A stretch of DNA of 64,000 nucleotides from Massilia psychrophila (GTDB taxonomy: Bacteria; Pseudomonadota; Gammaproteobacteria; Burkholderiales; Burkholderiaceae_D), in NCBI RefSeq assembly GCF_002760665.1, contig NZ_PDOB01000002.1, forward strand, positions 1 through 64,000. The letters are read 5' to 3'. This document shows positions 26,223 through 33,725 of the stretch, piece by piece. The stretch's first letter is position 1, and each line of letters begins with the position of its first letter. The notes beneath the pieces are model-generated. The model was not told where the DNA came from, did not search any database, and was given only the letters and a program-made list of their open reading frames with translations. The translations under genes were made by a program, and so were the position numbers.

Positions 26223-29021
26223 TTACTTGAACTTGTAACCGGCGCTGACGTAGACGAAACGGCCGCGTGGATCGTACTGGTTGATGTCGTAGCCGCCCTG
26301 GAACTGATTGCTGACAGGAACGAAAATCCCTGGCTGCTTGTCAAATAGGTTGCGAACGCCGAAATTCAGGTTCAGGTTCTTGATCGCCTTGTACGACAGG
26401 TTGAAGTCATACAGCGACTGCGCCGAGATGAAGTTGCGCACACCGTCGACCGCACGGTTACCCGTCTCGTAACGGCTTGAGTAGTTCTGGGTCAACGTCA
26501 GGGCCAGCTTGTTGAGCGTCCAGGTCGTGCTCAGCGCATGCTTCCAGCGCAGCACCACACCGCCGCTGTCAGCACCGAGTACCGGGTCGCCATTAGCATC
26601 GACGATGGTGCCAACCTTGTGCGACACAGTGCCGCCCGGGCTGGTCTGGTCGAACCTCTGCATGTACGTACCGTTCAGGCTGAAGTCGAACTTGCCAACG
26701 GTGCCGGTGTTCAGGCGATACAGCGCGAACAGGTCGGCGCCGCGAACGTCGGCACTGCCGGTGTTCGCCAGGATAGACTTGACGAGGTCGACGTCGTTGC
26801 CGCTCAGTGTGACCAGGTTGGCGTACGCCGGATCGCCGCGACGGAAGCCCGAGACCACTTCCTGGGTCGACGGAGTAGCCAGGATGTCGCTGACCGCAAC
26901 CTTGAAGTAGTCGATACCGATCGTCAGGTTGTTGATCGGCGAGAGCACCAGGCCAGCCGAATACTGCTTCGATTTCTCTGGCTGCAGGTCCGGGTTACCG
27001 CCGCTGAGCGCATTGACTTGCAGGTTGCTCTGCTTGGTTGCCGGGTCGGTGAACTGCGCCGAGGTGCCAACGCTTTGTGGCGTCCACAGGTCGGTCAGGG
27101 TTGGCGCGCGAAAGCCGGTGCCGGTCGACGCGCGTACCAGCACGCTCTTGACTGGCTGGTAACGAACGTTGACCTTGTAGTTGGTCGATTGGCCGACGTC
27201 GTCGTAACGGTCGTTGCGCACCGCAGCGCCGAGGTCGAGGTTCTTGAGCAGCGGCACGTTCACTTCGGCGAAGGCCGAATTGATCGTACGGCTGCGGCTC
27301 ACCGGAGGAACGCTGCCACCCAGGCCGGCCACGTCGCCCGCTTCGAGCGCAGGGCTCGGGTTGGTGTTGTAGCTCTCGTGGCGCGATTGCAAGCCAGCGG
27401 CGTACTGCGACGTGATGCCGGCAAGTTTCGGCAGGTCGCCGGCAACCTTGGCGTCGAATACCTGGCTTTTCGACTGCGCGTTCAGGGTGTCGCCGGTGTA
27501 TTGGGCCGCCTTCAGCTTCGTCGCCAGGGCGCCGGTCTGGACACCGCCGTCAACCCACGGATTCCAGTTGTTGGTCGGATCGTTGATGATCCTGGCATAA
27601 GCAACCTGGGAGAAATAACCACCGGGCACGGAGCCGTGCAGGGTACTGCGGTTGCTGGTCATCGCCACTTCGTAGTCCTGCTCGGCGAAGCTACCCTTGA
27701 CGCCGACCACGACACGCGATTGCGCCGCTTCGTCGAGGCTGGAACGGCCGCCGAAGTCGAACACGCGCGAAGTGATCGCCAGCGGCTGGCCGACCAGGCT
27801 CGAGAAACCTTGGCTGTTCAGGTAAGGCACGGCGATCGACTGGTACGCCGGGTTGCTCGGATACAGCAACAGCGCCGGGTCGACGCCCTGCTTCTTGAAC
27901 TCGGCATCGCTGGTCAGGAAGCTGCGGCGGACCGGACTGCCCTGGAAGGTTTGCGTCACATTGCTCTTCGAGTACATCATGTCCGAGAACAGTTCGGCGT
28001 TCGCGCCCAGCTTGACAGTGAAGTTACCGGTAAAGTTGGTCAGTTCGCGATCCGGCACCAGGCCGACAAAACCGTTGCTGTCGAATGCGCAAAACGGCGC
28101 ACCTTTGGTGGTGTTGGTGGCGCTCTTGTACATCTGGATCTTGGCGCAATTGTTGCTCGCGGCCAGAGGATTGCCGTAGCCGGTACCCGGCGAGTTGCCG
28201 AAGCCGGCAACGCGATCTGGCAGACCCTTGGCATAGTTGCCAGGAATGATCGCGCCTTCAATATTACCTTGGCCGGTAGCGCCGGCGGTGTAATACGGCG
28301 CGTTGTTGCCCGAGGCCGCGTAGGCGCGGTCCTTGGCGAACAGCGCTTCTTCCTTCTCATGCGAGGCGGACAGCACGACGCTGAAACCATCGGTGTCGAT
28401 GTTGCCGAAACCGCCGGTGGCGCTGAATTTCTTGCTCTGGCCGCCGCCTTTGGTGCTCGGCGTGCCGTACCCGGCGGTCGCTTCAAAGCCCTTGAAGTTC
28501 TTCGACAGGATGAAGTTGACCACGCCGGCGACGGCGTCGGAGCCGTACACACCAGATGCGCCGTCTTTCAGCACTTCGACGCGCTCGATTGCCGCCAGCG
28601 GAATCACGTTGACGTTGACGGTGGCGCCGCCGCCGCCGGCGAACGCCGCGAGGCGGCGACCGTTGACCAGCACCAGAGTGCGCTCTGCACCGAGGCCGCG
28701 CAGCGAGATCGACGACAGGCCATAGGTGGACGAACCGGCACCGGTGGCGTTGCTGGTGCCGCCCGACGACGATAATGCGGTAATCGAGGTCAGCAGCTGC
28801 TCGGTGCTGGTGGCGCCGGTACGGGTAATTTCTTCACGGGTCATGACCTGGACCGGCAACGCAGTCTCCGAATCGACACGTTTCAGGGACGAACCGGTAA
28901 TTTCAATACGCTGCATCGCAGCTTCCTGCGCGATTGCCGGAATTGCAAACCCCAGGCTGGCGACGACGCCGCCAGCGAAGATGATTCGAACCGAGCGCGC
29001 AAGCATTTTTTCTTTTAACAT
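26223..29021 (-). CDS. TonB-dependent receptor
   Basis: 932 residues. It is an outer-membrane importer with signal peptide SVRIIFAGGVVASLGFAIPA, cleaved before QEAA. A TonB-box-like MQRIEITGSSLKR is followed by the plug (ISLRGLGAERTLVLVNGRRL; VEVLKDGASGVYGSDAVAGV) and a barrel of about 700 residues ending in VYVSAGYKFK. The GS-x-(I/L)-KR start is typical of a large TBDR family in Massilia-like and Xanthomonas-like bacteria that often takes up carbohydrates or peptides. The substrate cannot be read from the sequence. GAGGAG upstream supports ATG 29021. An AT-rich perfect inverted repeat lies about 90 bp upstream of the start. Confidence 0.93.
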   Translation of the reverse strand: MLKEKMLARSVRIIFAGGVVASLGFAIPAIAQEAAMQRIEITGSSLKRVDSETALPVQVMTREEITRTGATSTEQLLTSITALSSSGGTSNATGAGSSTYGLSSISLRGLGAERTLVLVNGRRLAAFAGGGGATVNVNVIPLAAIERVEVLKDGASGVYGSDAVAGVVNFILSKNFKGFEATAGYGTPSTKGGGQSKKFSATGGFGNIDTDGFSVVLSASHEKEEALFAKDRAYAASGNNAPYYTAGATGQGNIEGAIIPGNYAKGLPDRVAGFGNSPGTGYGNPLAASNNCAKIQMYKSATNTTKGAPFCAFDSNGFVGLVPDRELTNFTGNFTVKLGANAELFSDMMYSKSNVTQTFQGSPVRRSFLTSDAEFKKQGVDPALLLYPSNPAYQSIAVPYLNSQGFSSLVGQPLAITSRVFDFGGRSSLDEAAQSRVVVGVKGSFAEQDYEVAMTSNRSTLHGSVPGGYFSQVAYARIINDPTNNWNPWVDGGVQTGALATKLKAAQYTGDTLNAQSKSQVFDAKVAGDLPKLAGITSQYAAGLQSRHESYNTNPSPALEAGDVAGLGGSVPPVSRSRTINSAFAEVNVPLLKNLDLGAAVRNDRYDDVGQSTNYKVNVRYQPVKSVLVRASTGTGFRAPTLTDLWTPQSVGTSAQFTDPATKQSNLQVNALSGGNPDLQPEKSKQYSAGLVLSPINNLTIGIDYFKVAVSDILATPSTQEVVSGFRRGDPAYANLVTLSGNDVDLVKSILANTGSADVRGADLFALYRLNTGTVGKFDFSLNGTYMQRFDQTSPGGTVSHKVGTIVDANGDPVLGADSGGVVLRWKHALSTTWTLNKLALTLTQNYSSRYETGNRAVDGVRNFISAQSLYDFNLSYKAIKNLNLNFGVRNLFDKQPGIFVPVSNQFQGGYDINQYDPRGRFVYVSAGYKFK

Positions 29022-29231: not shown

Positions 29232-30293
29232 TCAGCTGTCGTCGCGCAGGCGGCGCTGACGCACCGCCTGCGCCAGCGTTTCGAGCACCTGCAGGCTCTG
29301 CTCCCAGTCGATGCAGCCGTCGGTAACCGACTGGCCGTACACCAGCTTCTGGCCCGGCACCAGGTCCTGGCGCCCGCCGACCAGGTTCGACTCGACCATC
29401 ACGCCGACGATGCGGTCGTCGCCGCCCGCTACCTGGGCCGCGATGTCGGCGCATACCGGCACCTGGTTGTCGGGCTTTTTCGAGCTGTTCGCATGCGAGG
29501 CGTCGATCATCAGGCGCGCCGCCAGCCCCTGCAGGGCGACTTGGCGGCAGGCGTCCTCGACGCTGGCAGCGTCGTAGTTTGGCGTCTTGCCGCCGCGCAG
29601 GATGATGTGGCAATCCTCGTTGCCGTTGGTCGACACGATCGCCGAGTGGCCACCCTTGGTCACCGACAGGAAGTGGTGCGGCTGCGAGGCCGCCTTGATC
29701 GCCTCCACCGCAATCTTGATGTTGCCGTCGGTGCCGTTCTTGAAGCCGACCGGGCACGACAGGCCGGAGGCCAGTTCGCGGTGCACCTGCGACTCGGTGG
29801 TGCGGGCGCCGATCGCACCCCAGCTGATCAGGTCGGCGATGTACTGCGGGCTGATCACGTCGAGGAATTCGGTGCCGGCCGGCAGTCCCAGTTCGTTAAT
29901 GTCGCGCAGCAGTTCGCGCGCCATCCGCAAGCCATCGTTGATGCGGAAACTGTTGTCCATGTACGGGTCGTTGATCAATCCCTTCCAGCCGACCGTGGTG
30001 CGCGGCTTTTCAAAATACACCCGCATGACGATCTCGAGATCGGCGGCAAAGCGCACCCGCTCCTTGGCCAGGCGCCGCGCGTATTCCATCGCCGCGCCGG
30101 TGTCGTGGATCGAGCACGGGCCGATCACCACCATCAGGCGGCCGTCCTGGCCATGCAGGATGCGGTGCAGCGCCACCCGCGCCGCCGCCGCGGTCTGGCC
30201 GGCGGCATCGCTGCACGCGAACTCGCGGATCAGGTGCGCGGGGGGCGTCAATTCCTTCATTTCGCGGATGCGTAAATCGTCGGTGCGGGGCAT
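29232..30293 (-). CDS. aroG: 3-deoxy-7-phosphoheptulonate synthase (DAHP synthase, class I)
   Basis: 353 residues from ATG 30293, chosen because GGAG lies 7 nt upstream. It catalyses the first step of aromatic amino acid synthesis: phosphoenolpyruvate plus erythrose 4-phosphate give DAHP. The class I signatures are LMVVIGPCSIHDTGAAMEYA, RVYFEKPRTTVGWKGLINDP, GARTTESQVHRELASGLSCP and LMIDASHANSSKKPDNQVP. The length matches the AroF/G/H family. Which amino acid inhibits the enzyme cannot be fixed with certainty from sequence alone, but the leader upstream carries a Phe-rich ORF and a terminator, so expression appears tied to phenylalanine supply. The symbol aroG is used on that basis. Confidence 0.95.
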   Translation of the reverse strand: MPRTDDLRIREMKELTPPAHLIREFACSDAAGQTAAAARVALHRILHGQDGRLMVVIGPCSIHDTGAAMEYARRLAKERVRFAADLEIVMRVYFEKPRTTVGWKGLINDPYMDNSFRINDGLRMARELLRDINELGLPAGTEFLDVISPQYIADLISWGAIGARTTESQVHRELASGLSCPVGFKNGTDGNIKIAVEAIKAASQPHHFLSVTKGGHSAIVSTNGNEDCHIILRGGKTPNYDAASVEDACRQVALQGLAARLMIDASHANSSKKPDNQVPVCADIAAQVAGGDDRIVGVMVESNLVGGRQDLVPGQKLVYGQSVTDGCIDWEQSLQVLETLAQAVRQRRLRDDS

Positions 30294-30343: not shown

Positions 30344-30372
30344 AAAAAAAAACCGCCATCGCTGGCGGTTTT
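30344..30372 (-). terminator. Attenuator terminator in the aroG leader
   Basis: On the minus strand AAAACCGCCA (30372-30363) pairs perfectly with TGGCGGTTTT (30358-30349) around a 4-nt loop, followed by a run of T reaching 30344. It lies after the Phe-rich leader ORF and about 50 nt before the aroG ATG. Its 5' arm can alternatively pair with GGCGGT at 30430-30425, inside the leader ORF. Confidence 0.88.
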
Positions 30373-30417
30373 CAGAAGTTTTGCTGGATCTGGTTCTGCT
30401 GTTGCGTGAACCTGCCG

Positions 30418-30486
30418 CTACTCCACCGCCTTGGGGTTGGAATCGCTAAAGAAAAAATGGCAGCTAAAAAGCATCACACAGCGCAT
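30418..30486 (-). CDS. Phenylalanine-rich leader peptide of the aroG attenuator
   Basis: A 22-codon ORF runs from ATG 30486-30484 to TAG 30420-30418, with GGA about 8 nt upstream. Four of 22 residues are Phe, at positions 7, 11, 12 and 13, including a Phe-Phe-Phe run (codons TTT TTC TTT). The local context reads LFSCHFFFSDSNPKAVE. Codons 19-21 contain the GGCGGT element that can pair with the 5' arm of the downstream terminator. A ribosome stalled at the Phe run would leave this element free, giving antitermination. A ribosome reaching the stop would cover it, giving termination. This is classic attenuation logic, as in enterobacterial pheA leaders; no expression evidence is available. Confidence 0.78.
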   Translation of the reverse strand: MRCVMLFSCHFFFSDSNPKAVE

Positions 30487-30512
30487 GGCAGTATCCGAAT
30501 GTCGTTTCGACG

Positions 30513-30542
30513 ACTATAGCAATAATGCGCGCCGCTTGGCAA
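30513..30542 (-). promoter_or_regulatory. Sigma70 promoter of the aroG leader
   Basis: On the minus strand TTGCCA (30542-30537) and TATAGT (30518-30513) are 18 bp apart. The predicted transcript would start about 20 nt before the leader-peptide ATG, so leader ORF, terminator and aroG all lie in one transcript. Confidence 0.72.
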
Positions 30543-30833
30543 GCGCTTTGTCCGGCAGGGTCCGCACAATCTGGCGCCTACTTGCCCGCAAGCTCGTTGC
30601 GTGAATCACACACTAGCGATGCCAACCCGGCGGAGTTTGACGCGCGTCAGTCGAATCGGCGCAACCGATGCAAAACTCGACACACCTGACACCCCAGTCT
30701 ACTTCGTGGAATGGGGTTTGATCCGAAACAAATTTTCTCTACGGTTTTAATGAATTAAATCAACGTTTTTGCACGCCCGACGGATGCGCTCTGCGCTGCG
30801 GGATGTAGTTCGCCTTCTACCTTGGAGTCTGAC
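30543..30833. other. Divergent region between aroG leader and TBDR
   Basis: This 290-bp non-coding stretch must contain the promoter of the plus-strand TBDR. Two symmetric elements are seen: ACCCCA (30691-30696) with TGGGGT (30712-30717), and TTTAAT-GA-ATTAAA (30746-30759), a perfect 6+6 AT palindrome 75 bp before the TBDR start. GGAG at 30824-30827 is the TBDR ribosome binding site. Confidence 0.5.
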
Positions 30834-33725
30834 ATGAAAGAAACCATCTTGTCCCATTCGTTGCGCCGTATTTTCGCGGGCGGCGCCGCTGCCGGCCTCA
30901 GCTTGCTGGCCCAGGGCGTACAGGCGCAGGACCAGGCGCCGGCCGCCGCGCAGCCGATCGCCCGGGTCGAAATCACCGGCTCGAACATCCGCCGGGCGCA
31001 AGCCGAAACCGCCTCTTCCGTGCAAACCCTGAACCGCGCCGACATCGAAAAAACCGGCCGCACGACGGTCGCCGAACTGCTGCAGACGCTGGCGATCGAC
31101 AACCAGGGCTCGGTGCCGACCAGTTTCGGCGGCGGCTTCGCCCAAGGCGCCTCGGGCATCTCGCTACGCGGCCTCGGTGCCGCCTCGACGCTGGTGCTGC
31201 TCAACGGGCGCCGCATCGCGCCGTACGGCCTGGCCGACGACGGCCAGAAGGTGTTTGCCGACCTCAACATCATCCCGGCCGAAGCGGTCGAGCGGGTCGA
31301 GATCCTCAAGGACGGCGCCTCCGCCATTTACGGCTCGGACGCGATTGCCGGCGTCGTCAACGTGATTTTGCGCAAAGACTTCCAGGGCACCACTGTCAAG
31401 GCCAGCTACGGCAAGTCGGGCGACTGGGATGGGCGCGACACGCGCCTGGCGATCACTCACGGCTTCGGCGACCTCGACGCGGACCGCTACAACGTCCTGT
31501 TCAGCCTGGAATTCGGCGGCAAGCGCGAAGTTTACAACCGTGACCGTGCCGGGCGCGACCAAATTGGCCGCGCCGATCTGCGCGACAAGGGCTTTTCCGC
31601 CCAGGAAGGATTCGGCGGCACCGGCGCCATCATCGACGGCAGAACCGCCGCCGGCAGCGCCGTCAATGGCAACGTGCGCAGTCCCTTCCTCTCCAACCCC
31701 GCCGATCCCGACTCGCCGCGCTTGTACTACAACCGCGGCAATCCGGCCGGCGTCGGCTTCACCCGTTTCTTCCCGGCGGCCGCCTGCGGCAATTTCACCA
31801 GCCACCCGCAGGGCGACCCCGGCGGCGGCTGCCTGACCGACGCGCAACAGCAGTACCAACAGATCCAGCCCCGGCAAAACTCCTACAACCTGTTCGGACG
31901 CGGCTCCTTCAAGCTCAGCCAGACGCTCGAGGCGTATGCCGAGATGAATTACTACTGGACAGAATCGCAATCATTGAGTACCCCATCGAATGTCAGCGCA
32001 TCGGTTGGCTACCCCGGCGGGCCGGTCAGCAACGCTGGCGCGGCGCTCGGCGCGGCCCATCCGGACAATCCCTACTTCGGCACCGCGGCGCGGCTGCGCT
32101 ACCTGGCCACCGACGTCGGGCCGCGCACCAGTGCGATCAACTCCAAATTCGGCCGTGCGCTGGTGGGCATCAAGGGCACCGCCATGAACTGGGACTTCGA
32201 CAGCTCGCTGTTGTATTCGACCAGCAGGGTAAAAAACAACCGGAATGGCTTCTTGCAGCGTAACGTCGCCTTTGCGCTGCTTAATCCGACCGCGGCCAAC
32301 GTGGCGGCGGCCAACACCAATCCAGCCTACGCGGCACTGCCGCCCGGTACGGTCTGGCGCATTGCCGAAAACGCCGGACTGAATTCACCGGCGATGTACG
32401 CAGCGCTGTCGCCAGCCATTTCAAACAAGGCACAGACCAGCATCACCCAGATCGATTTCAAGGGCACGCGCGAATTCAACCAGGTAATGCTGCCCGGCGG
32501 GCCGCTCGCGGTGGCAGCGGGCATCGAATATCGCAACGAGCGCACCGAGCTGGCGCCGACTTCGGGCACCGAGCTCGGCAACATTATCGGGCTCGGCTAT
32601 TCAGCCTATTTCGGCAAGCGCGACGTGACCGGGGTGTATGCCGAAGCGCTGGCCCCGCTGCTCAAGACGCTCGAACTGACGGGCGCGCTGCGCTTCGACC
32701 ATTACTCCGACGTCGGCAACTCGTACACGCCGAAGGTCGGCATCAAGTGGACCCCGATGCGCGAGCTGGCGCTGCGCAGCACGTTCGCCAAGGGTTTCAG
32801 GGCCCCGAGCTCGGCCGAAAACGGTGTCGGCGGGCTGGCCGCGTTCTCCACCGCCAGCGACCCGCTGCGCTGCGCACTGGGCGTCGATTCGGCCTGCGTT
32901 GCCGGTCCGATCGCCATCATCACTTCGCCCAATGCCGCACTGAGTCCGGAACGCTCGAAGAGCTGGTCGGTGGGCGCGATCTGGGATCCGCTGCCGCGCA
33001 CCAGCATCTCGCTCGACTTCTGGCAGATCAAGCGCAAGAATGAAATCAACCAGGAGCAAACCGACGTCGCAATTGCGGCCGGCCAGGTGGCGCGCGACCC
33101 TAGCACCGCGACCAGGCCCGGCGACCCGGGCCAGATCACGGCGGTGCTGGCCAACTACGTCAACTCGGCCAACACCAAAGTGCGCGGCGTCGACCTGGAC
33201 GGGCGCACGTCATTCAACCTCGGCAGCGGCCGCGGCACCCTGGCGATGGACGCCAAGTGGACCCACCTGTTCAAATGGCTGCGCACCGAAAAGGACGGCA
33301 GCGAGCGCGACTTCGCCGGCACCCACGGCAACTGCGACGTCACCAACTGCATCGGCACGCCGGACGACCGGGTCAACCTGGGCGCGACCTGGGACCTGAC
33401 GCCATGGCGTGTGTCGGCCACGGTCAACTACCGGGCGCCGATCAAGAACACCCTGTTCAAGAACGACCCGGCCGGCTGCGCGTTTACCTTCGCCGATGGG
33501 CGCGACGCCCCCAATGGCTGCGAGATCGCCTCGTTCACCACGCTCGATTTGACCGCGCGCTGGACGCTGAGGAAAAACACCGAACTGTTCGGCACCATCC
33601 AGAACGTGTTCGACAAGATCGCGCCGCTCGATCCGCTGACCTACGGCGCAACCTCGTACAATCCGCTCGACTACAGTGGTGCGCTGGGGCGTTACTTCCA
33701 GGTCGGCATGCGCCACAAGTTCTGA
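30834..33725 (+). CDS. TonB-dependent receptor
   Basis: 963 residues from ATG 30834, with GGAG 7 nt upstream. It is an outer-membrane importer with a signal peptide (IFAGGAAAGLSLLAQGVQAQ). A TonB-box-like ARVEITGSNIRR is followed by a plug (GISLRGLGAASTLVLLNGRR; VERVEILKDGASAIYGSDAI) and a barrel that ends RYFQVGMRHKF. The barrel has extended loops with paired Cys (for example AACGNFTSHPQGDPGGGCLT), suggesting disulfide-stapled external loops. It shares the family start (ITGS-x-I-RR) with the receptors at 26223-29021 and 46144-48930 but is clearly a separate paralogue. Its ligand is unknown. It is divergent from aroG and followed by a bidirectional terminator. Confidence 0.93.
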   Translation: MKETILSHSLRRIFAGGAAAGLSLLAQGVQAQDQAPAAAQPIARVEITGSNIRRAQAETASSVQTLNRADIEKTGRTTVAELLQTLAIDNQGSVPTSFGGGFAQGASGISLRGLGAASTLVLLNGRRIAPYGLADDGQKVFADLNIIPAEAVERVEILKDGASAIYGSDAIAGVVNVILRKDFQGTTVKASYGKSGDWDGRDTRLAITHGFGDLDADRYNVLFSLEFGGKREVYNRDRAGRDQIGRADLRDKGFSAQEGFGGTGAIIDGRTAAGSAVNGNVRSPFLSNPADPDSPRLYYNRGNPAGVGFTRFFPAAACGNFTSHPQGDPGGGCLTDAQQQYQQIQPRQNSYNLFGRGSFKLSQTLEAYAEMNYYWTESQSLSTPSNVSASVGYPGGPVSNAGAALGAAHPDNPYFGTAARLRYLATDVGPRTSAINSKFGRALVGIKGTAMNWDFDSSLLYSTSRVKNNRNGFLQRNVAFALLNPTAANVAAANTNPAYAALPPGTVWRIAENAGLNSPAMYAALSPAISNKAQTSITQIDFKGTREFNQVMLPGGPLAVAAGIEYRNERTELAPTSGTELGNIIGLGYSAYFGKRDVTGVYAEALAPLLKTLELTGALRFDHYSDVGNSYTPKVGIKWTPMRELALRSTFAKGFRAPSSAENGVGGLAAFSTASDPLRCALGVDSACVAGPIAIITSPNAALSPERSKSWSVGAIWDPLPRTSISLDFWQIKRKNEINQEQTDVAIAAGQVARDPSTATRPGDPGQITAVLANYVNSANTKVRGVDLDGRTSFNLGSGRGTLAMDAKWTHLFKWLRTEKDGSERDFAGTHGNCDVTNCIGTPDDRVNLGATWDLTPWRVSATVNYRAPIKNTLFKNDPAGCAFTFADGRDAPNGCEIASFTTLDLTARWTLRKNTELFGTIQNVFDKIAPLDPLTYGATSYNPLDYSGALGRYFQVGMRHKF

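Follow-up and report, generated by a model that had tools for sequence, protein, structure and literature searches.

The window, by which we mean the whole 64,000-nucleotide stretch of Massilia psychrophila DNA analysed here, carries on its minus strand aroG (29235 to 30293), assigned by NCBIfam, Pfam and structure matches to the type I 3-deoxy-7-phosphoheptulonate (DAHP) synthases, AroG subfamily. The ATG lies at 30293 with GGAGAA upstream. The product scores 576.3 bits against the NCBIfam equivalog NF006723 (cutoff 568), in line with an earlier proposal, made from the bare sequence, that the gene 3′ of the attenuator encodes a DAHP synthase. It also matches Pfam PF00793, and its nearest solved structures are of the Phe-regulated AroG of E. 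coli. As judged by these matches, the window gene is a predicted AroG-type enzyme, the Phe-sensitive class of DAHP synthase. The genome encodes a further DAHP synthase (C8), 51% identical to this one; no leader of the kind described below was found before it. TonB-dependent-receptor-like ORFs flank aroG at 30822 to 33725 on the plus strand and at 26223 to 29021 on the minus strand; the upstream of the two is divergent and lies between aroG and tldD.

The leader of aroG starts with a sigma-70-type promoter (30513 to 30542, minus strand) made up of TTGCCA (30542 to 30537), an 18-bp spacer and TATAGT (30518 to 30513), the last preceded by the TGC of an extended −10 element. A promoter scan gave a single sigma-70-type site in 3 kb, with 10/12 matches, against a chance expectation of 0.6. 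The TTGCCA/TATAGT pair is kept in 43 of 105 leaders, mostly with a spacer of 18. There follows on the same strand a leader ORF of 22 codons, MRCVMLFSCHFFFSDSNPKAVE (30418 to 30486), running from an ATG at 30486 to a TAG stop at 30420 to 30418. Its four regulatory Phe codons are at positions 7, 11, 12 and 13, the last three being consecutive, and its Shine-Dalgarno sequence is weak. A homologous aromatic-rich ORF is found in 104 of the 105 leaders. Between the leader ORF and aroG sits an intrinsic terminator (30344 to 30372, minus strand) with a 10-bp stem (arms 30372 to 30363 and 30358 to 30349), a GCGA loop (30362 to 30359) and a T tract reaching 30344. A simple terminator scan did not list the window hairpin; later scripts did detect it. 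The sequence-only reading had described the promoter pair with its 18-bp spacing, the 22-codon ORF with its Phe positions, GGCGGT at 30430 to 30425 and the perfect 10-bp hairpin with its T tract, and all are present where it placed them.

Folds of the leader RNA

The 164-nt leader RNA folds more stably than shuffled sequences (z −2.4). Folding and covariation define a 1:2 anti-antiterminator hairpin that overlaps the leader ORF. Its 5′ arm is region 1, ATTCCAACCCC (30433 to 30443, minus strand), within codons 15 to 18, and pairs with codons 19 to 22 (GGCGGTGGAG). Region 2, GGCGGTGGAGT (30420 to 30430, minus strand), comprises codons 19 to 22 and the first base of the stop, and serves both as the 3′ arm of 1:2 and as the 5′ arm of the antiterminator 2:3. 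Folding predicts 1:2 in 84 of the 86 distinct leaders. Its arms change jointly between families, being UUCCA/UGGAG in the Oxalobacteraceae type, UCUC/GAGA in Burkholderia and UUUCUGCC/GGCGGAAG or UCCC/GGGA in other families. The pairs that belong together beat cross-family pairs on energy, a result exceeded in only 1 of 2000 permutations. Among the covarying elements of the leader, 1:2 has the best support, and it explains the default-off state.

Region 3, AACTTCTGAAAACCGCCA (30363 to 30380, minus strand), was delimited from the ribosome-masked fold and contains the 3′ side of the antiterminator together with the 5′ arm of the terminator. In the predicted fold the antiterminator extends beyond GGCGGT/ACCGCC; GGCGGTGGAG pairs with ACTTC...ACCGCC, GGAG:CTTC included. 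Pairing of GGCGG with the terminator 5′ arm, exclusive with the terminator, is predicted in 99% of the 105 leaders. The mutual exclusion of folds through GGCGGT/ACCGCC proposed from the sequence therefore stands, but not the count of two folds, as the 1:2 hairpin had been overlooked and the antiterminator is longer.

GGCGGT is invariant across 56 aligned leaders, although its codon frame differs in some. The usual reading of GGCGG is xxG GCG Gxx; four leaders (L014, L041, L116 and L151) use another frame and three (L026, L094 and L095) the third. In these seven the tail peptide is wholly altered while GGCGG and its partners are kept, thus it is the RNA, not the peptide, that is conserved there. 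Since the 2:3 core does not vary, covariation is unable to test it, and its support comes from conservation across different codon frames. The distal part of 2:3 gave no significant covariation (479 of 2000 permutations). The terminator stem does carry compensatory changes among relatives. The orthologue comparison proposed in the sequence-only reading accordingly bears it out for retention of a Phe-containing ORF, the antiterminator and the terminator, and for compensatory changes in the terminator but not in 2:3. Owing to the variable length of the linker, RNAalifold on MAFFT alignments recovered hardly more than the invariant core and the terminator. Past the leader stop, 30418 to 30380 on the minus strand (GCGG..GGTTCACG) is strongly conserved within the family, for example in L081, L001 and L002; predicted inner helices of the antiterminator partly explain this.

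Conservation and distribution

The 80 closest aroG orthologue loci were compared. The terminator, with GGCGG 45 to 77 nt upstream of its 5′ arm, is present in 78; in the two exceptions, L036 and L049, the entire leader is missing. The check set by the sequence-only reading, whether near relatives drop the pairing or the Phe codons yet retain aroG, did not refute it. With a covariance model trained on 44 leaders of one family, the genome of the window gives a single strong match (E = 6.7e-28), and 186 of 195 genomes of its family, representing 39 of 44 genera, are matched. A chance coincidence of hairpin and ORF is ruled out by this conservation, in the orthologue loci and in the family genomes alike. 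Across the order the model, trained on the one family, matches 37 of 200 genomes, several of these being chance terminators. When the ORF and terminator were searched for directly, the element turned up in 28 of 69 inspected Burkholderiales genomes, from many families. Only 1 of 29 loci from other gammaproteobacterial orders has it, thus the element appears largely confined to Burkholderiales.

That single locus (L152) belongs to the same class but another order; its aroG is 71% identical, its leader is MNTPCARFYRWYYFPKPPAEEGVRAF and its terminator is the same. Horizontal transfer, or a placement near Burkholderiales, is possible. One locus (L130) was excluded from the leader set as its region came from the wrong side of the gene. 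The weak model matches that were inspected (E 1e-5 to 1e-3) resemble ordinary terminators, and we rejected them as copies of the element at other genes. One genome gave a second strong match, but this is no second gene: a 5.55 Mb contig carries its one aroG locus at each end (L194 and L195, ends of G425 C1), apparently through untrimmed overlap of a circular chromosome.

Probable control of aroG and its amino acid signal

Taken together, aroG is very probably controlled by a classical three-hairpin, ribosome-mediated transcription attenuator. We infer that RNA polymerase initiates near 30506 and transcribes the 22-codon leader. If the leader is not translated, region 1 would pair with region 2, allowing the terminator (3:4) to form. 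A ribosome released at the stop would likewise leave 1:2 to pair, or would itself cover region 2, again giving 3:4, and transcription would end near 30344. When charged tRNA-Phe is scarce, the ribosome would stall at codons 11 to 13 and mask region 1; region 2, lying just beyond the footprint, could then pair with region 3, the terminator would be blocked and aroG would be transcribed.

Predicted folds agree with this scheme. Folded without a ribosome, the RNA holds region 2 in a 5′ structure and the terminator forms. With a ribosome masked at codons 11 to 13, the transcript as far as the terminator 5′ arm adopts the antiterminator (−23.6 kcal/mol), and with the stop codon in the A site the terminator alone remains; masked folding rests on an assumed ribosome footprint. 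The last aromatic codon lies 8 to 20 nt from GGCGG in all but 2 of 104 leaders, and exactly 14 or 20 nt in 79. Under the same assumed footprint this spacing would hide region 1 beneath the stalled ribosome and leave region 2 free at its edge. Against the scheme speak the weak Shine-Dalgarno sequence of the leader and those leaders with long tails (e.g. AVKSGKRS), where GGCGG would be covered only in part by a ribosome at the stop. The folds and spacing support the earlier suggestion that the Phe codons are so positioned that a stalled ribosome frees GGCGGT and a terminating one covers it. Attenuation of the ribosome-mediated type thus survives from the sequence-only reading, with three hairpins in place of two and with a different view of the family's specificity.

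In the leader peptides Phe makes up 19% of residues and Tyr 9%, and aromatic codons are strongly enriched. Of 104 leaders, 68 have Phe and Tyr, 31 Phe, Tyr and Trp, three Phe and Trp, and two Phe alone. The Phe-only leaders are the window's own and L140. The term "phenylalanine attenuator" fits the window sequence; it does not fit a family with Tyr codons in 99 of 104 leaders and Trp codons in 34, for which the codon content suggests "aromatic attenuator" as the better name. It is quite possible, if somewhat short of probable, that one betaproteobacterial attenuator family at the entry to the shikimate pathway responds jointly to the charging of tRNA-Phe and tRNA-Tyr, and in some lineages of tRNA-Trp as well, by way of a mixed codon run, with codon substitutions retuning specificity on a fixed three-hairpin RNA, and that the window species became Phe-only.

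A rival to the Phe-tRNA reading concerns specificity and not mechanism. It holds that the element responds to aromatic amino acids as a group and not to Phe in particular, and that the Phe-only run reflects recent drift (loss of a Tyr codon) of little functional meaning. We find this plausible without thinking it probable. The frequent Tyr and Trp codons beside Phe speak for it, as do the four genus-mates of the window species, all of which (the fourth being L001) carry F-Y-F. In addition, PMC11802643, describing Neshat et al. 2014, reports that in C. glutamicum the aroR leader, with a Phe-Tyr-Phe run, controls an operon containing the DAHP synthase gene aroF and responds to Phe limitation. 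Against this, the window ORF has no Tyr or Trp codon, so that direct input from either amino acid is impossible in the window genome.

A role of the leader RNA or peptide mainly in trans, as for rnTrpL/peTrpL of Sinorhizobium, with attenuation secondary or absent, we regard as unlikely. S. meliloti leader products are described as acting in trans (peTrpL, PMC7298713), a short and abundant terminated RNA would be expected here too, and the conserved region past the stop could be read in the same way. However, the leaders with another GGCGG frame replace the whole peptide tail and keep the RNA pairing, the fixed spacing of the aromatic run to GGCGG is what attenuation requires, and the element remains tied to aroG.

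The attenuator reading also has close parallels. As in the window, the enterobacterial pheA (pheL) and pheST (pheM) attenuators combine a Phe-rich ORF, three alternative hairpins and a T-tract terminator; they differ in their target genes, and relatives of the window element commonly add Tyr and Trp codons. In E. coli, aroF, aroG and aroH are controlled by TyrR and TrpR. The same step and an orthologous enzyme are thus controlled there by DNA-binding repressors in place of a leader RNA. The contrast with E. coli drawn in the sequence-only reading is fair, but a Phe-containing leader at a DAHP synthase gene has a precedent in the C. glutamicum aroR/aroF system (PMC11802643). In that system and, very probably, in the window family, a DAHP synthase gene is attenuated by way of the translating ribosome, and the aroR run is that of many window relatives. 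C. glutamicum is an actinobacterium, unlike the window host, and with aroR taken here from its description, convergence is likely. Within Proteobacteria, attenuation of DAHP synthase genes has been predicted for the Vibrio aroA-I-alpha(Y)>tyrA operon (Merino database, as given in Table 7 of PMC1173090), and for E. coli aroF an attenuator that senses Tyr-tRNA was put forward (Camakaris 1980, as cited in PMC2659441). Both proposals are predictions, for Tyr-type genes of Gammaproteobacteria, and in this they differ from the window element.

The Rfam model RF01859 (Phe_leader) matches the window over its full length with 21 bits (E 0.25), below its gathering score of 55, and the Rfam scan of the window gave no gathering-level match. 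An element near-universal in the window's family is thus without an above-threshold Rfam match. One survey gives a Phe leader as still absent from Rfam in 2013. The main text of the attenuator surveys searched does not mention the element, and the literature searched, mostly other than subscription papers, yielded no earlier description in Betaproteobacteria. That the aroG element is real, conserved and mechanistically familiar is well supported. For Burkholderiales (Burkholderia, Paraburkholderia, Caballeronia, Massilia, Herbaspirillum, Janthinobacterium and others) it suggests a concrete way, open to experiment, in which flux into aromatic amino acids may be set at aroG. The mixtures of Phe, Tyr and Trp codons on one fixed RNA switch form a natural series for the evolution of attenuator input, and the attenuator could be put to use in engineering Burkholderiales hosts for aromatic overproduction.

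Gene order upstream of aroG

It is hardly credible that the terminator simply ends an upstream gene (tldD, in the ancestral order) and that the ORF is incidental: at 58 of 149 loci tldD is indeed the next gene upstream, on the strand of aroG, but in the window the divergent TonB-receptor ORF separates it from aroG and its stop is followed by a terminator-like hairpin and T tract of its own, the promoter, aromatic ORF, 1:2 hairpin and antiterminator are conserved alongside the terminator, and in leaderless loci only 57 to 207 nt separate the tldD stop from aroG. The divergent gene and tldD's own terminator-like sequence leave the attenuator terminator without a gene-end role in the window. Where the leader is present, tldD stop and aroG are at least 278 nt apart; as the spacing is short where it is absent, leader loss goes with compaction. 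The leaderless loci with a close tldD include L036, L049, L084, L092, L093, L097 and L109, among others, and in these aroG is presumably read from the tldD promoter.
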